Virus record (IMG/VR): IMGVR_UViG_3300044941_000314
Coordinates: 1-26,111 of that record
DNA from: a virus
Length of the DNA stretch: 26,111 nucleotides
Reading direction: 5' to 3' (one strand)
Every line of letters begins with the position of its first letter. Positions within the stretch are counted from its first letter, which is position 1. The notes under the pieces were generated by a model, which saw only the letters and a list, made by a program, of their open reading frames with translations, did not search any database and was not told the DNA's origin. This document shows positions 11,590 to 23,879 of this stretch, piece after piece. The translations under genes were made by a program, and so were the position numbers.

Positions 11590-12110
11590 GTATTTCGATC
11601 AAGCAATTTACCCAAAAGCTAACCCTTTCTTGGACGATTGCCGATGCCCTTGCTACCGGTAACGCTGCTAATCTGTCTTCAACGAAGTCAAAGTTTTCAA
11701 CGGCTTTTACCTTTGGTGTTGGCGACGGGCAGGTTGATACTTTGCACGAGCAAGTTATTACGCTTGCACCTTCGGCAAATACAACAATCGATCTTACAAC
11801 GCTTGCCGATATGATCACAGGGGATGCCTTCGCATTCGATGTTGTTAAGATGATTATCGTAACAATAGATACTGTTGCAGGGGTCACGGCTTCAAAGATC
11901 GTGATGGAGCCGGGGGCCAGCAACGGCTGGAAAGGATTCTGGGAAACGACTTCTTGGAAGCAATCGGTATGGGCAAACGGGGGATACATTGCCGTTAGTC
12001 CTCTTGCTGGGGTCGATGTCTCGAGCACGGAAAAGACCCTAAAATTTACGAACGCTGACAGTACAAACGCAGCTAAGATACGCTTATTTCTTGCAGGCAT
12101 CGCAGTCTAA
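11586..12110 (+). CDS. Unknown tail-region protein, beta-rich, 174 aa
   Basis: It reads MSISIKQFTQKLTLSWTIAD, followed by Ser/Thr/Ala-rich strands (SANTTIDLTTLADMITGDAFAF, VVKMIIVTIDTVAG) and a C-terminus resembling a secreted or virion beta-sandwich (STEKTLKFTNADSTNAAKIRLFLAGIAV). It lies immediately before the tail tube candidate. It may be a virion surface or tail-associated protein. No family recognised. Confidence 0.6.
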   Translation: MSISIKQFTQKLTLSWTIADALATGNAANLSSTKSKFSTAFTFGVGDGQVDTLHEQVITLAPSANTTIDLTTLADMITGDAFAFDVVKMIIVTIDTVAGVTASKIVMEPGASNGWKGFWETTSWKQSVWANGGYIAVSPLAGVDVSSTEKTLKFTNADSTNAAKIRLFLAGIAV

Positions 12111-12122
12111 AAAGGGGATATC

Positions 12123-12533
12123 ATGGCTGAACCATTATCGGGGAAATACGGTCGCGTTAATGCTGGGGGCGTGTCCCTAGAATTTGCAGGCGAATGGCGA
12201 ATATCCGAAAACGCCAATCTGCTCGAAACTACAAATTTCGAGAATGCGATTACAGCCGGGGGAAAGTCCCTTGTCCAAAAGATTGTTGGACTTACAGAAG
12301 TAACCGGAACCGTTTCTGGTCGCTTCTCGCTGGGGCAGATTCCCAGCGACGTCAATATTGTCATTGGAAATGATGCTGAGATCGAGCTTGATCTAATCGT
12401 CAAAAAACCAGATATCGGGATTACCGTATCGGTGGTTTTATCTAACTGCGAATTGGGCACGGTCATTACAGACGGGGCTAACTTCTCTTGGGGTTTCCAC
12501 GTCAATAGCATCGTTGCTGAGAATTGGAGCTAG
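12123..12533 (+). CDS. Probable major tail tube protein, 136 aa
   Basis: The sequence opens with PLSGKYGRVNAGGVSLEFAGEW, then NANLLETTNFEN, VVGLTEVTGTVSGRFSL-like strands, DAEIELDLIVKKPDIGITVS and NFSWGFHVNSIV. The 'G..v....v...W.i.e.....etTNFe..g.....gl...tg...g' pattern resembles small tail tube proteins of siphoviruses. It directly precedes the tail assembly chaperone pair and tape measure, the canonical position. The ATG has GGGGAT 7 bases upstream. Confidence 0.65.
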   Translation: MAEPLSGKYGRVNAGGVSLEFAGEWRISENANLLETTNFENAITAGGKSLVQKIVGLTEVTGTVSGRFSLGQIPSDVNIVIGNDAEIELDLIVKKPDIGITVSVVLSNCELGTVITDGANFSWGFHVNSIVAENWS

Positions 12534-18715: not shown

Positions 18716-19669
18716 ATGTCAGATGCACAAAGCCCCAAAGATGCCCCCGTTCCTGCCCCTGCCCCTGCAATCGGGTCGGGGGGCTGGTTCACTGAAGCCC
18801 AAAAGAGTAAGCTGGTCGCTATCCTGATATTCTTTCTCGGGGCTCTGGCCCTTTTGATCCTACAATGGCTTCGCAAGGAAGCTGGCCTAAATCAAGAAAC
18901 CCCCACTCCCCAGCCACCAGCTTTGGTGGCTGAAAAACCTGCCCCTCAAGCCCTTGTCGAGGATGATATCCCCCTTTACTTTTGCGGGGATCGTCCACGG
19001 CTGCAAGATAATTTCCGAGCGAAGCGATTCCCAACCGATAAGATCACGTGGTCTATTGATCCTTCGGGATATGTTGGCAGATTGAAGCCCGAGGATATTA
19101 TTCAAGCTTTCGAGATTGCTTGGCAGACTTGGAGACGCTGGCTAAATATCGAACCCGTGAATGTTGGAAGCTGGGTCGCTGGGGCAGACGGGAAACAGGT
19201 CTGGAAGCCCAACGAGGCTAAAGCTTTGGTGCGGTCTCGGTTTGGGGTATTGATGCGAGAAGATGGCCGACCCGATGGCCCCCGCAACATTCTGGCTTAT
19301 TCTGAATTGTCAGACGGAACGCTTGTTGCAAAAGAACAATTGTATGACAATGCCGAGAATTGGGGTATAGCAGAGAACCCCCCGGCTTCGATGATAGAAA
19401 TGGTGCGGGTCGCTGCCCATGAGATCGGGCACGCTCTGGGGCTCGAGCACGATCACGTCGGCACAGGGGCTCTGATGGAACCGACGTATTCTCGCAACGT
19501 CCGCTTCCCCACCAGCCGAGACGCTAGTAGGATGTACCAGCTTGGATATAAGCCTCGTGACGACAAGGCCAATCCTTCTAAGCCCATTCTCATTTCGGTA
19601 ACAGCCGATGCGGAAAAACTAATTGATGCCCTGCGTCAGGCTGGGTATGCTATTGAGATAAAGAAATGA
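18716..19669 (+). CDS. Membrane-anchored matrixin-type zinc metalloprotease, 317 aa
   Basis: The catalytic signature HEIGHALGLEHD (residues ~237-248) is the HExxHxxGxxHD motif of peptidase family M10A, and GALMEPTYS after it supplies the Met-turn. N-terminal to it are VIITWSIDPSGYVG-like strands and IIQAFEIAWQTWRRW, as in matrixins. Residues ~36-53 (VAILIFFLGALALLILQW) form a single membrane anchor after a short Pro-rich N-terminus, so the enzyme is probably a type II membrane protein facing outside the cytoplasm. A short Pro-rich linker joins anchor and domain. No propeptide cysteine switch is seen. It starts a cassette with its own promoter. Confidence 0.85.
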   Translation: MSDAQSPKDAPVPAPAPAIGSGGWFTEAQKSKLVAILIFFLGALALLILQWLRKEAGLNQETPTPQPPALVAEKPAPQALVEDDIPLYFCGDRPRLQDNFRAKRFPTDKITWSIDPSGYVGRLKPEDIIQAFEIAWQTWRRWLNIEPVNVGSWVAGADGKQVWKPNEAKALVRSRFGVLMREDGRPDGPRNILAYSELSDGTLVAKEQLYDNAENWGIAENPPASMIEMVRVAAHEIGHALGLEHDHVGTGALMEPTYSRNVRFPTSRDASRMYQLGYKPRDDKANPSKPILISVTADAEKLIDALRQAGYAIEIKK

Positions 19670-19794
19670 TCGAAAGGTTAAAGATTGGGCTGGCAGCCGT
19701 AGAACCTTTGGCTAAATGGCTCACCCTTATAATCGCTATTCTATTCGTTGCATTTCTGTTAGATAATCTAAGGTTCCCAAAAAGAAAAAGGTAA
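19666..19794 (+). CDS. 42-aa membrane peptide, possibly holin-like
   Basis: The ATG overlaps the matrixin stop by 4 bases (ATGA), so the peptide is coupled to the protease. It has an amphipathic start (MIERLKIGLAAVEPLAKW), one hydrophobic segment (LTLIIAILFVAFLL) and a strongly basic C-terminus (FPKRKR). The stop is 4 bases before the next ATG. Such a small single-span peptide beside a membrane protease could be a holin, a protease partner, or an assembly factor. Its function is unknown. Confidence 0.6.
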   Translation: MIERLKIGLAAVEPLAKWLTLIIAILFVAFLLDNLRFPKRKR

Positions 19795-19798
19795 AAAT

Positions 19799-21577
19799 AT
19801 GTTTTCGGCTTTGGCCTTATCGTATGTATTGGCTGCCCCAATTGATAAAGACGCTCAGATCATCTCCCCAGCTTTGGTGGTTGTGGAAGTTGCCAAAGAT
19901 ATCGTCCGGCTTGTTGACAATCGAATTTATCGACCCGAAGAGATCCCTTTTCAGATTTGGTTTTCTTTTCATACTTTGCCCCCAGCTGATCGGGCAGACT
20001 TCCAAAGGATTTTTACCTTTTGGCTTAATCATCTTTCGGCAAGCCCCAGAATAGTAAGGCTTGAATACTTACAAGATAATTTAATAGGTCGGCTTGATGT
20101 TCGGGACGCTCCGAATTGGACACGCACGGGCTGGCAGATTGTCGGGAATCGCGACTATCTTTTTCGAGAACCGAATATCCCACACCTTGTTACCCAATTT
20201 GTTCGAGATTTCACAGGGGTAAAGCAAGATAAGGAAACGCTGGCAGCCGGAGTAATTTTGAACGCTTGGCAGTTCTTTAGAGATACGATTGAATCCAATC
20301 GGGTGGGCAGCTATTACGATATCCTTTATGGGAAGCAAAGACACCCAGACGGGATTGTTCTGCCCCCTTCGGGGATCAGCCGACCCGCAAAGATTGAGCG
20401 AAAAGTAGTTTCTTGGGAAGGGGGGAAGTGGAAGGACGGGAAGGAATACCCAGCCGGTTCGTTTACTTATTACAAAGATATTGTGATTGAACCAGCCGTC
20501 GAAGCAAGCCCTTTTCCCCGAGTGATCCCCAGCGAAAAAAAAGGCGATGCGAATTTCCCAGCGACTGGTAAAGACTTCGAGACGATTTGGGGGGCAGACG
20601 TTTCAGCCGAAGCCCTGAAAAAGCTGGGGGTCGATCCTCGGGTTGGGGGCATCGCATTAGGCAAGCTTGACGGGGATGGGGCAGGAAGCTTTGTTGCCCT
20701 TCGCACAAGGGCAATTCGGGTAACTCCTTCGGCTTACGGGAATGTCAGCCGTACCTTTGACGTTTTCCGCTCGCAAGGCGATAAAGATCATCGTCGAAGA
20801 TTTGGGCAAATATCAAAAGGTGAGATCGGGGCAGACGGTTCGGAAATTCTCGCTACCTTGCCGAACGGGGCACAGGCTGGGCTTCTCTGTAATGACAAAG
20901 ATGAACGGGTCGAGCTTGCCCCCTCTGACCTTGCCCAAGTCGATAGCAAGATTGATAAATTTGCAGACGTTAGAACGCATATGTCTTGCATCGTCTGCCA
21001 TGCCCCGATGGGTGGATTTATCCCCTTCAACGAGCAAGTAAAGGCAGCTTTGGAAGCTGGGATAAAGCTCGAAGCCCAAGACGATGACCCTGCAAAGCAA
21101 AGGGAGAAAGCCCGAAAGGTTGAAGAGTTTTATCTTGATTGGGAATACAAAATAAAGGGGTGGCAGGCCCCTTACCTTCGCTTCATTGAGCAAACTACGT
21201 TCGATCCAGTGACAAAAAAATCTTGGACACCAGCCGAAACGGTTGTCAGATTTCAAAAGTACAGAGATCAATATGATAGACCTTTGAAAATTGACGATGC
21301 TTGCCGAGAATTGGGGGTAAGCCCTGCCCAGCTTCGGATAGCAATTTTGGCAAAGAAGCCTGTCGAGATTGGCCCTAACGAATTGGTCGTCGGTCGGTCG
21401 ATATCCCGTGACTCTTGGGAATCGTCGGAGCAAGGGGGAGTCGCACGGGAATGCTATTTGCTCCTTGATGCTTGCAAAGAGCATGAAGAACGGGTAAAAT
21501 TATTACTCAAAGATGGGCTGATCGAAGAAGCCATTAACGAGTTTAAAAAGCAATTACTCGGGGAGAAGAAAAAGTGA
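19799..21577 (+). CDS. Exported protein with one CxxCH haem-c site, planctomycete type, 592 aa
   Basis: It begins with a short signal-like stretch (MFSALALSYVLAAP). The haem-binding motif CIVCH lies near residue 397, preceded by PNGAQAGLLCNDKDERVELA and followed by APMGGFIPFNEQV. I recognise this arrangement ('PNG...y.l.n..g.R...AP..., SCM.CHa.G.i') from large planctomycete proteins annotated as cytochrome c domain proteins. Residues ~1-200 and the last ~150 are unrecognised. It would attach haem covalently outside the cytoplasm using host maturation proteins. The next gene, a clearer cytochrome, overlaps by 4 bases. The second axial ligand is not obvious. Confidence 0.75.
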   Translation: MFSALALSYVLAAPIDKDAQIISPALVVVEVAKDIVRLVDNRIYRPEEIPFQIWFSFHTLPPADRADFQRIFTFWLNHLSASPRIVRLEYLQDNLIGRLDVRDAPNWTRTGWQIVGNRDYLFREPNIPHLVTQFVRDFTGVKQDKETLAAGVILNAWQFFRDTIESNRVGSYYDILYGKQRHPDGIVLPPSGISRPAKIERKVVSWEGGKWKDGKEYPAGSFTYYKDIVIEPAVEASPFPRVIPSEKKGDANFPATGKDFETIWGADVSAEALKKLGVDPRVGGIALGKLDGDGAGSFVALRTRAIRVTPSAYGNVSRTFDVFRSQGDKDHRRRFGQISKGEIGADGSEILATLPNGAQAGLLCNDKDERVELAPSDLAQVDSKIDKFADVRTHMSCIVCHAPMGGFIPFNEQVKAALEAGIKLEAQDDDPAKQREKARKVEEFYLDWEYKIKGWQAPYLRFIEQTTFDPVTKKSWTPAETVVRFQKYRDQYDRPLKIDDACRELGVSPAQLRIAILAKKPVEIGPNELVVGRSISRDSWESSEQGGVARECYLLLDACKEHEERVKLLLKDGLIEEAINEFKKQLLGEKKK

Positions 21578-22176
21578 AACTATTTGCAGCCTTCGGGCTT
21601 CTGGCTTTTTTCGGGGCTTTGATGCTCCCCGAAGCCCACTCCGATTGTCGTAGGGTAATCGTCGGGGGGCAAACTTACGCTGCCCCCGTATATGCTGCTC
21701 CGATCTACCACCAAGCCCATGAAAACATTGTACTTGTGCCAAAGGCATTTCTGGTGCAGACCCGTAGCGACTACGCTGCGGGAATCGGTGACGAGATTCG
21801 GCAGAAGCAATTTGCCAAAGATGTCGCCGACGAGCTTTACCGGATGATCCAAGAAGCCCAGCGATATCAAGCCCCTCCCCAGACAGGGGGGCAGACCAGA
21901 CCACCCGTAGATGTAACTCCGAATCCTGCCCAGCCTTTGAAAGCCGAAGGGGTTACCATCAAGGATGTTCTGGCAAAAAATTGTGTATCCTGTCACGGGA
22001 AGGGTGGGAATCTGCCCCTACTGACTGGGGACCCCGACAAGATCGACTACTTAATTCGGGGGGATATCCTGAATGCAGTCGTCGAAGGCAGAATGCCCAA
22101 AAACAAGCCTGCCTTAACGCAGGAGGAACTTAACGTCGTTCACGCTTGGCAGGATCGAAGAAAAGCGAAAAAGTGA
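21574..22176 (+). CDS. Exported monohaem c-type cytochrome, 200 aa
   Basis: A clear signal peptide (MKLFAAFGLLAFFGALMLPEAHS) is followed by a Tyr/Ala/Pro-rich region (YAAPVYAAPIYHQAH), a charged linker, and a class I cytochrome c domain. This has the haem motif CVSCHG near residue 137 and a likely axial Met in GRMPKNKPALTQEEL, then the closing helix ELNVVHAWQDRRK. Length is normal for a signal plus linker plus cytochrome. It is coupled to the upstream haem protein. It should carry electrons in the periplasm or bind haem on the cell surface; the partner is unknown. Confidence 0.85.
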   Translation: MKLFAAFGLLAFFGALMLPEAHSDCRRVIVGGQTYAAPVYAAPIYHQAHENIVLVPKAFLVQTRSDYAAGIGDEIRQKQFAKDVADELYRMIQEAQRYQAPPQTGGQTRPPVDVTPNPAQPLKAEGVTIKDVLAKNCVSCHGKGGNLPLLTGDPDKIDYLIRGDILNAVVEGRMPKNKPALTQEELNVVHAWQDRRKAKK

Positions 22177-22271: not shown

Positions 22272-22757
22272 ATGCGATTTTCTGCAATTCTGACCGCTCT
22301 GGGCCTTTTGGCTTTCGGGGCTGGCAATTCCTTCGCTGGGGATTGTTTGCGTATCAATCCTTCGGCTGGGGCAGCTTTCACCACAGGGGCTTACTCGCAA
22401 GGCTTTTCTGGGGGCTGCTCTGGGGCCTACACAGACGCACCTACCCAGACCCTTGAGATTCGCGGATTCTCGACGGGATCGGCTTACGTTGCCCCCCAAC
22501 CGATTGTTTTGCGGGAAGTTGCACCCGCTCCGGCTTATCATCAAGGGCAGGCAATCGTTGTGCGACAGTTCAACGCGGGTCATGCTTACGGTGCCCAACA
22601 ACCGGTGATTCTGCAACAACGAGCACAACCCGTAATTGTTCGTCGTCAAGTTGTCGTTGCACGACAACAAGGACAAGCACAACAGGGGGTAGTTGGATTA
22701 CTTCGAGTCGCTGCCAATACCGTCGCTGGTGTCGCTGGTGCTCTCATCGGTCGATAG
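22272..22757 (+). CDS. Exported Gln/Ala/Val-rich low-complexity protein, 161 aa
   Basis: Signal peptide MRFSAILTALGLLAFGAGNSFA, then a Gly/Ser-rich region (CSGAYTDAPTQTLEIRGFST) and repeated phrases such as YVAPQPIVLREVAPAPAYHQ, GHAYGAQQPVILQQRAQPVI and VRRQVVVARQQGQAQQG. The hydrophobic C-terminus (VVGLLRVAANTVAGVAGALIGR) may sit in a membrane. Similar secreted proteins are common in Planctomycetes and share the Y-A-P style with the upstream cytochrome. Its DNA becomes less like the rest of the phage toward the 3' end, and a second copy of the C-terminal tail lies at 23960-24022. AAAGGAG precedes the ATG by 7 bases. No function known. Confidence 0.7.
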   Translation: MRFSAILTALGLLAFGAGNSFAGDCLRINPSAGAAFTTGAYSQGFSGGCSGAYTDAPTQTLEIRGFSTGSAYVAPQPIVLREVAPAPAYHQGQAIVVRQFNAGHAYGAQQPVILQQRAQPVIVRRQVVVARQQGQAQQGVVGLLRVAANTVAGVAGALIGR

Positions 22758-23077: not shown

Positions 23078-23755
23078 CTACTCTGCGTGTTTCGCAGTTC
23101 TCAAATATCGCTCCGCCGTTGCCGATGGCTTGATGATTGTGCAAGCGTCAAGAACACACACAAGATCGTCCGAAGGTCGAGATAACCTATCATTCTCGCC
23201 CTCAATAGAAGAGACATCGATCAAGGTAAGTCGATGCACAGAGTTACTCCATTGATGAATGATGCGAGCATTTTTCAACCAAACCTCTCGGCCATTGTGG
23301 TACTGATATTCTCCGCACAGGCAGCCTGATTCCCGCGACCGCACAACAACATAATCCCCCTCAGCAAAAGACATATAAGGCTCCTCAAAATAATGATTTA
23401 ACTTTGTAAATCCCCCATACCCATACCCAGACCCAGATCCAGACCCAGACCCAGACCCAGACCCATCCCCATACCCAGACCCAGACCCAGACCCAGACCC
23501 AGACCCAGACCCAGACCCAGACCCATACCCATACCCAGACCCAGACCCATACCCATACCCATACCCAGACCCAGACCCATCCCCATACCCATACCCATCC
23601 CCATACCCAGACCCATACCATCGGAGAGGTCGAGCAGGCGGAAGAATACCCTCCCTGCGAAGCCAATCCTCGGCGATGAAATAACCTCTCTCCCCGCACC
23701 AATCGGCGGCAATTAACGGACGATGCAACAACAAACGCAGGTCTTCAGGTATCAT
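23078..23755 (-). CDS. Gly-Ser/Tyr/Asp repeat protein with DUF6948-like C-terminus, ~225 aa
   Basis: After ~47 ordinary residues (PEDLRLLLHRPLIAADWCGE) there is a ~68-residue run of dipeptides GS, GY and GD, then a C-terminal domain with FAEGDYVVVRSRESGCLCGE, EVWLKNARIIHQWSNSVHRL and CVLDACTIIKPSA. This resembles DUF6948, where 'VVVRTy.aGv..G.l....g.eV.L..Ar....W' and 'i.Ii' are typical; many members come from Planctomycetes. I chose ATG at 23755, which has AAAGG about 8 bases upstream; GTG at 23800 is possible. The alternative frames of the repeat, long but low-complexity, are not genes. The repeat may form a flexible linker or phase-variable length. Confidence 0.7.
   Translation of the reverse strand: MIPEDLRLLLHRPLIAADWCGERGYFIAEDWLRREGILPPARPLRWYGSGYGDGYGYGDGSGSGYGYGYGSGSGYGYGSGSGSGSGSGSGSGSGYGDGSGSGSGSGSGSGYGYGGFTKLNHYFEEPYMSFAEGDYVVVRSRESGCLCGEYQYHNGREVWLKNARIIHQWSNSVHRLTLIDVSSIEGENDRLSRPSDDLVCVLDACTIIKPSATAERYLRTAKHAE
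23414..23619 (-). repeat. Imperfect hexanucleotide repeat, about 34 units
   Basis: The plus strand repeats CCCATA, CCCAGA and CCCATC units almost without interruption; on the coding minus strand these give GY, GS and GD dipeptides. Units are in frame, so slippage would change length by two residues without frameshift. This makes it a possible source of length variation. Confidence 0.9.
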
Positions 23756-23771
23756 GCAATTACCTTTTGAA

Positions 23772-23879
23772 TCAGATTGTTCCATTCCCGAAAGCATCAC
23801 GAACCCGCTTTCCTACCGGCATTCCCGCACGGGCGAGAAAGGGCTTTTCGTCGGTGTTCGGTTTCTCCGTTGCGTTCAT
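23772..23879 (-). CDS. Small ORF leading the inserted operon, 35 aa
   Basis: ATG with AGGT 5 bases upstream, 16 bases before the start of the Gly-repeat gene. The sequence MNATEKPNTDEKPFLARAGM continues PVGKRVRDAFGNGTI and is hydrophilic. It is the first ORF downstream of the promoter and three half-site operator. It could be a leader peptide or a small DNA-binding protein, or simply the leader. Confidence 0.45.
   Translation of the reverse strand: MNATEKPNTDEKPFLARAGMPVGKRVRDAFGNGTI

Follow-up and report, generated by a model that had tools for sequence, protein, structure and literature searches.

A conserved cassette of two putative c-type haem proteins with protease neighbours in small and huge phages

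Background

What would a tailed phage do with two exported proteins that each carry a CxxCH haem-attachment motif? The question is raised by a 26,111 bp IMG/VR record (the window), for which a first-pass annotation proposed two distinct c-type haem proteins that redirect periplasmic electron transfer late in infection. To our knowledge, the phage redox genes known so far have cytoplasmic or photosynthetic roles. A search of the full text of open-licence PubMed Central papers turned up no account of c-type cytochromes of phages in a cassette such as this one, nor do cytochromes come up in the main text of the huge-phage paper (PMC7162821). Our analysis suggests that phages have a redox module, so far undescribed, that acts in the host envelope late in infection. 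With slightly better than even confidence, we read the cassette as encoding an exported pair of c-type haem proteins with a redox function, which acts on the host envelope at that stage.

Results and discussion

The phage genome and its late operon

Two further records, G001 (32,242 bp) and the permuted G002 (27,311 bp), are near-identical to the window. The portal-to-cytochrome distances in both directions sum to ~32.2 kb, so G001 is close to a whole, circularly permuted genome. The tailed-phage setting given in the annotation was borne out, as terminase, portal, major capsid and tape measure were all found. In the protein scans of G001 and G006, a tape-measure hit to an 'endolysin' PHROG (4.8e-6) ranks below seven tape-measure PHROGs and was not taken as an endolysin. 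The matrixin protease and the DUF3987 helicase had their matches on various bacterial plasmids, which did not point to a host.

The late operon runs from the tail fibre through a coiled-coil protein, a matrixin protease and a 42-aa transmembrane peptide to the 592-aa, 200-aa and 161-aa proteins (Table 1). Coding regions overlap between protease and peptide and again between the two CxxCH genes, where the GTG start of the 200-aa gene lies 4 bases inside the end of its neighbour. The cassette thus forms the end of the late operon, after the tail fibre; in G006, a second phage of similar size, it immediately precedes the terminase genes. The matrixin protease (HEIGHALGLEHD) has a hydrophobic segment at its N-terminus and a homologue at the same position in G006 (54% identity). 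The 42-aa peptide is holin-like by size only, and G006 has a 41-aa hydrophobic single-segment ORF in the same place. A homologue of the 161-aa protein (38% identical) is likewise found there, and in the huge phages a low-complexity secreted-type ORF occupies the corresponding position. This third cassette gene aligns to G001 over only 226 of 483 bases, while neighbouring genes are ~95-99% identical, and judged from these alignments it seems to vary fast. Elsewhere in the window, one minus-strand gene encodes long Gly-Tyr/Gly-Ser dipeptide repeats followed by a DUF6948 domain, and a gene of G001 that is not part of the late operon codes for a secreted Cys/Pro-rich protein of 142 aa.

Table 1. 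Positions of the genes and loci discussed in the text
Feature	Sequence	Coordinates	Strand	Evidence or remark
Membrane-anchored matrixin-type Zn metalloprotease, 317 aa	window	18716..19669	+	Pfam Peptidase_M10 8e-15, above cut-off
Single-TM peptide, 42 aa	window	19666..19794	+	ORF scan; start overlaps protease stop (ATGA)
Large mono-CxxCH protein, 592 aa	window	19799..21577	+	CIVCH 397-401, invariant C397/C400/H401
Predicted exported mono-haem cytochrome c, 200 aa	window	21574..22176	+	Pfam Cytochrome_CBB3; CVSCH 137-141, Met174
Low-complexity V/A/Y/Q-rich protein, cassette gene 3, 161 aa	window	22272..22757	+	Signal-peptide-like N-terminus
Dipeptide-repeat protein with DUF6948 domain	window	23078-23800	-	
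Cys/Pro-rich protein, 142 aa	L013 (in G001)	11916-12344	-	
Secreted-type protein, ~250 aa	L022	4660-5427		Upstream of the huge-phage cassette; also equivalents
Large-family paralogue	L068	3093-4289	-	C[VI]ACH
Large-family paralogue	L069	3305-4453	+	C[VI]ACH
Large-family paralogue	L070	3225-4403	-	C[VI]ACH
Large-family paralogue	L078	4001-5188	+	C[VI]ACH
Neorhizobium plasmid cluster	L056	2654-9596		

Two CxxCH proteins, one of them in an undescribed family

Both ORFs and their motifs are exactly as annotated: 592 aa with CIVCH, and 200 aa with CVSCH followed by GRMPKNKP (residues 172-179). In composition-preserving shuffles, the chance of a CxxCH is 0.0007 for the larger protein and 0.0012 for the smaller. 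Identity between the window and G006 at codon positions 1/2/3 is 0.65/0.74/0.37 for the large gene and 0.56/0.64/0.41 for the small one; this concentration of changes at third positions indicates that both are selected coding genes.

The small protein passes the Pfam Cytochrome_CBB3 model (3.4e-7, 30.9 bits versus a cut-off of 27). CxxCH is present in 14 of 14 relatives, each with a later Met-Pro ~36-50 residues past the first Cys, and a scan with this family recovered relatives only in the three closest phages. Judged by motif and profile, it is a mono-haem class-I-type cytochrome c, in which His and Met would be the haem ligands and which would serve as an electron shuttle.

A profile search against cytochrome c families, proposed in the annotation as a check, thus succeeded for the small protein and gave no family for the large one, which has no match in Pfam, PHROGs or NCBIfam. 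By these comparisons it is a member of an undescribed family, one without a match in the libraries searched. The context of its motif had been called planctomycete-style. A reading of the protein as a member of the planctomycete PSCyt family was rejected: the window proteins have no PSCyt1 (PF07635) match at E 1, and the model matches only a Neorhizobium fusion protein (see below), in that protein's own cytochrome domain. We assembled 18 large-family sequences (14 phage orthologues, 3 paralogues and 1 bacterial protein), some only 16-25% identical, and C397, C400 and H401 are invariant in all of them. Also conserved are S297, V299, G314, N356, G357 and G406, together with R304 (17 of 18) and E349 (16 of 18, with Q in the other two). 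Apart from the His of the CxxCH, no His or Met is conserved across the set. Given that only the proximal His is kept, the haem iron of the large protein may have an open coordination site.

Could the CxxCH hold a metal or a disulfide instead of haem, at least in the large protein? The missing family match and the lack of confident predicted structure around residues 374-428 would agree with this, but the motif is kept without exception in a predicted exported protein whose relatives can be as little as 16% identical, and the Neorhizobium protein fuses the large domain to three canonical cytochrome c domains. We therefore consider this alternative quite improbable. Covalent c-type haem on both proteins is likely, given the Pfam match of the small protein and the conservation in the large family, and the same sequence evidence gives good support to the annotation of two different c-type haem proteins in a tailed phage.

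Signal peptides had been claimed for both. By inspection, most large-family relatives begin with ordinary-looking ones, but the N-terminus of the 592-aa protein in the window (MFSALALSYVLAAP) is short and without a basic n-region. Both proteins look exported; Sec would secrete them, and the host cytochrome c maturation system would supply the haem. The large protein would be the partner of the small one, with a single c-haem bound by the proximal His and no conserved distal His/Met; its probable ligand or substrate is a small molecule, for example O2, H2O2 or NO.

Structure prediction and the P460 question

The model of the 592-aa protein has a mean pLDDT of 57, with residues 374-428 in the region that lacks confident structure. 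The top VIA-align row for this low-confidence model is a beta-sheet cytochrome c', 7ead (Z 4.1, rmsd 3.9, 96 residues, model 265-456 versus chain 1-128), a score within noise, as the unrelated p32 reaches 3.8. Foldseek found no significant match, and the better model of a relative, L031 (pLDDT 74), returned only noise from Foldseek and VIA-align, without repeating the 7ead resemblance. Twelve large-family members have no match to PF16694 or any other Pfam family at E 10. An hhalign comparison of the large family with a P460 alignment (2je2, the NsP460 entry and plasmid sequences) found nothing similar beyond CxxCH. The profile comparison thus led us to reject membership of the P460/c'-beta sequence family, within which published sequence similarity is itself very low (PMC11928373), and the modelled resemblance is a weak lead rather than membership.

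These results bear on a role in gas or peroxide handling, in which the C-terminal half of the large protein would hold a five-coordinate haem of the P460/c'-beta kind that binds NO or H2O2 of the dying host and is re-reduced by the small protein. A P460/c'-beta-like strand order had been predicted before the structure search brought 7ead to the top, and the large family conserves no distal His/Met, yet keeps R304 and E349 almost throughout. However, the tie with p32, the failure of the better model to give any match, and the hhalign and PF16694 results make this specific proposal unlikely, and we retain the more general reading of an exported haem redox pair.

The cassette recurs in otherwise unrelated phages

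The order large, small, low-complexity is kept in G006 (31.8 kb) and on smaller contigs, as well as in the huge or large-contig phages G007 (187 kb), G008 (341 kb), G011 (343 kb), G013 (254 kb) and LR756511 (595 kb). Divergent large/small pairs, again with the small cytochrome directly downstream, are present in G014 and G015. Between the window phage and G006, the large proteins are 57% and the small proteins 48% identical. Outside the cassette, what the two phages have in common is limited to a DUF1064-like gene and a weak similarity of tape measure and tail fibre; terminase, portal and capsid are not shared. Conversely, G005 has terminase, portal and capsid in common with the window, and no CxxCH gene lies in the part of G005 examined. 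IMG/VR fragments may be incomplete. Taken together, G005 and G006 indicate that the cassette moves between unrelated phages, and from its gene content and order it is a transferable multi-gene unit across otherwise unrelated phages of 32 kb to 595 kb. The first reading of the window had two haem proteins; the comparison shows that they belong to a conserved set of several genes, with proteases nearby, that unrelated and even huge phages have in common.

In G007, G008 and LR756511, a second, shorter large-family gene lies beside a gene for a secreted-type C39-like protease; L078 repeats this pairing, and L079 is a further large-family member. No small cytochrome adjoins the huge-phage paralogue, hence the large protein may in some cases do without the small one. 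Upstream of the huge-phage cassette is a gene for a ~250-aa secreted-type protein with no Pfam match.

In the window phage, in G006 and in the huge phages, the gene after the pair encodes a low-complexity secreted protein. This might suggest cross-linking: the large protein would work like a peroxidase, and oxidation of aromatic residues in the Tyr/Phe-rich low-complexity protein would build or dismantle a protein layer in the envelope. We regard this as highly unlikely, since no peroxidase family match was found and the huge-phage low-complexity proteins seem to contain more Phe, Val and Asn than Tyr.

A bacterial protein fuses the two domains

A profile of the large domain matched a 1157-aa c-type cytochrome of Neorhizobium petrolearium, WP_227705619.1 (E 3e-29). 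Here, the large domain, including a CFDCH, sits behind three cytochrome c domains, the third of CBB3 type with a GNRMP motif, and the C-terminus is marginally DUF4384-like. A cellular homologue exists in Neorhizobium; for an auxiliary metabolic gene of a phage, such a homologue would have a metabolic role. Scans across GTDB gave no relative, but the patterns used were narrow, so this does not imply absence from cells. That domains encoded by adjacent phage genes are fused in one bacterial polypeptide argues, at the level of sequence, that the phage pair works together and exchanges electrons. The fusion also makes the proposed periplasmic electron transfer plausible; the direction of the electrons, like the open coordination site, is inferred.

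The Neorhizobium gene lies in a plasmid cluster with genes for a caspase, an OmpA protein and a ferric-reductase-like NAD/FAD protein. This oxidoreductase neighbour, like the similarity of the small cytochrome to ordinary cbb3-type carriers, would suit a pair of respiratory auxiliary genes that feeds or drains the periplasmic chain of the host and sustains its energy metabolism, with no part in the envelope or lysis. Against this, the phage cassette closes the late operon in the company of proteases and low-complexity secreted proteins, and the proteins scanned from the window and G001 include no further recognisable respiratory component. We find a purely respiratory role doubtful.

A possible late role in the envelope

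A protease is encoded close to most of the cassettes, and these neighbours are of four kinds: matrixin, papain C1, C39-like (beside the paralogue) and astacin-like, the last 4.4 kb upstream in G014. Papain-like proteases are absent in G010 and G011. No known endolysin or peptidoglycan hydrolase was recognised among the proteins scanned from the near-complete G001 or from G006, which does not imply that these phages lack one. A late envelope role is suggested by three features together: protease neighbours from four families, the terminal place of the cassette in the late operon, and the failure of these scans to recognise an endolysin. We rate this role, taken alone and judged from gene context, at about one in three. 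The haem pair would act with the membrane-anchored or secreted protease, the small hydrophobic peptide and the low-complexity secreted protein, and its target would be the host envelope late in infection, through remodelling, lysis or exclusion. A more specific and improbable version is haem-dependent envelope breaking, in which the protease and the redox pair open an envelope that ordinary holin-endolysin lysis does not, as a module exchanged between small and huge phages.

If the preferred reading of an exported redox pair is true, phages from 32 kb to 595 kb share an exported haem-c module that depends on haem attachment by the host outside the cytoplasm. In the fused bacterial relative, the question of which proteins exchange electrons would be accessible to direct test.

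Comparison with known systems

Similar to phage holin-endolysin cassettes, the genes described here follow the tail fibre and include a small single-TM peptide and a lytic-type enzyme, here a protease. Unlike those cassettes, no peptidoglycan hydrolase was recognised and two haem proteins are present; we know of no lysis cassette that contains two haem proteins. The large protein may resemble P460/c'-beta proteins (PF16694) in having predicted beta strands before a near-terminal CxxCH, and like them it has no conserved distal His/Met, but it is ~4x longer, and profile similarity is limited to the CxxCH. In the Neorhizobium protein, the domains of the pair form a single polypeptide whose neighbours are the caspase, OmpA and ferric-reductase-like genes instead of phage genes. 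The small protein is like class I/cbb3-type cytochromes c (PF13442), with which it shares one CxxCH, a later axial-type Met in GRMP, predicted export and a score above the Pfam cut-off; to this, the phage version adds a low-complexity N-terminal half of ~110 residues and a place in a phage operon.
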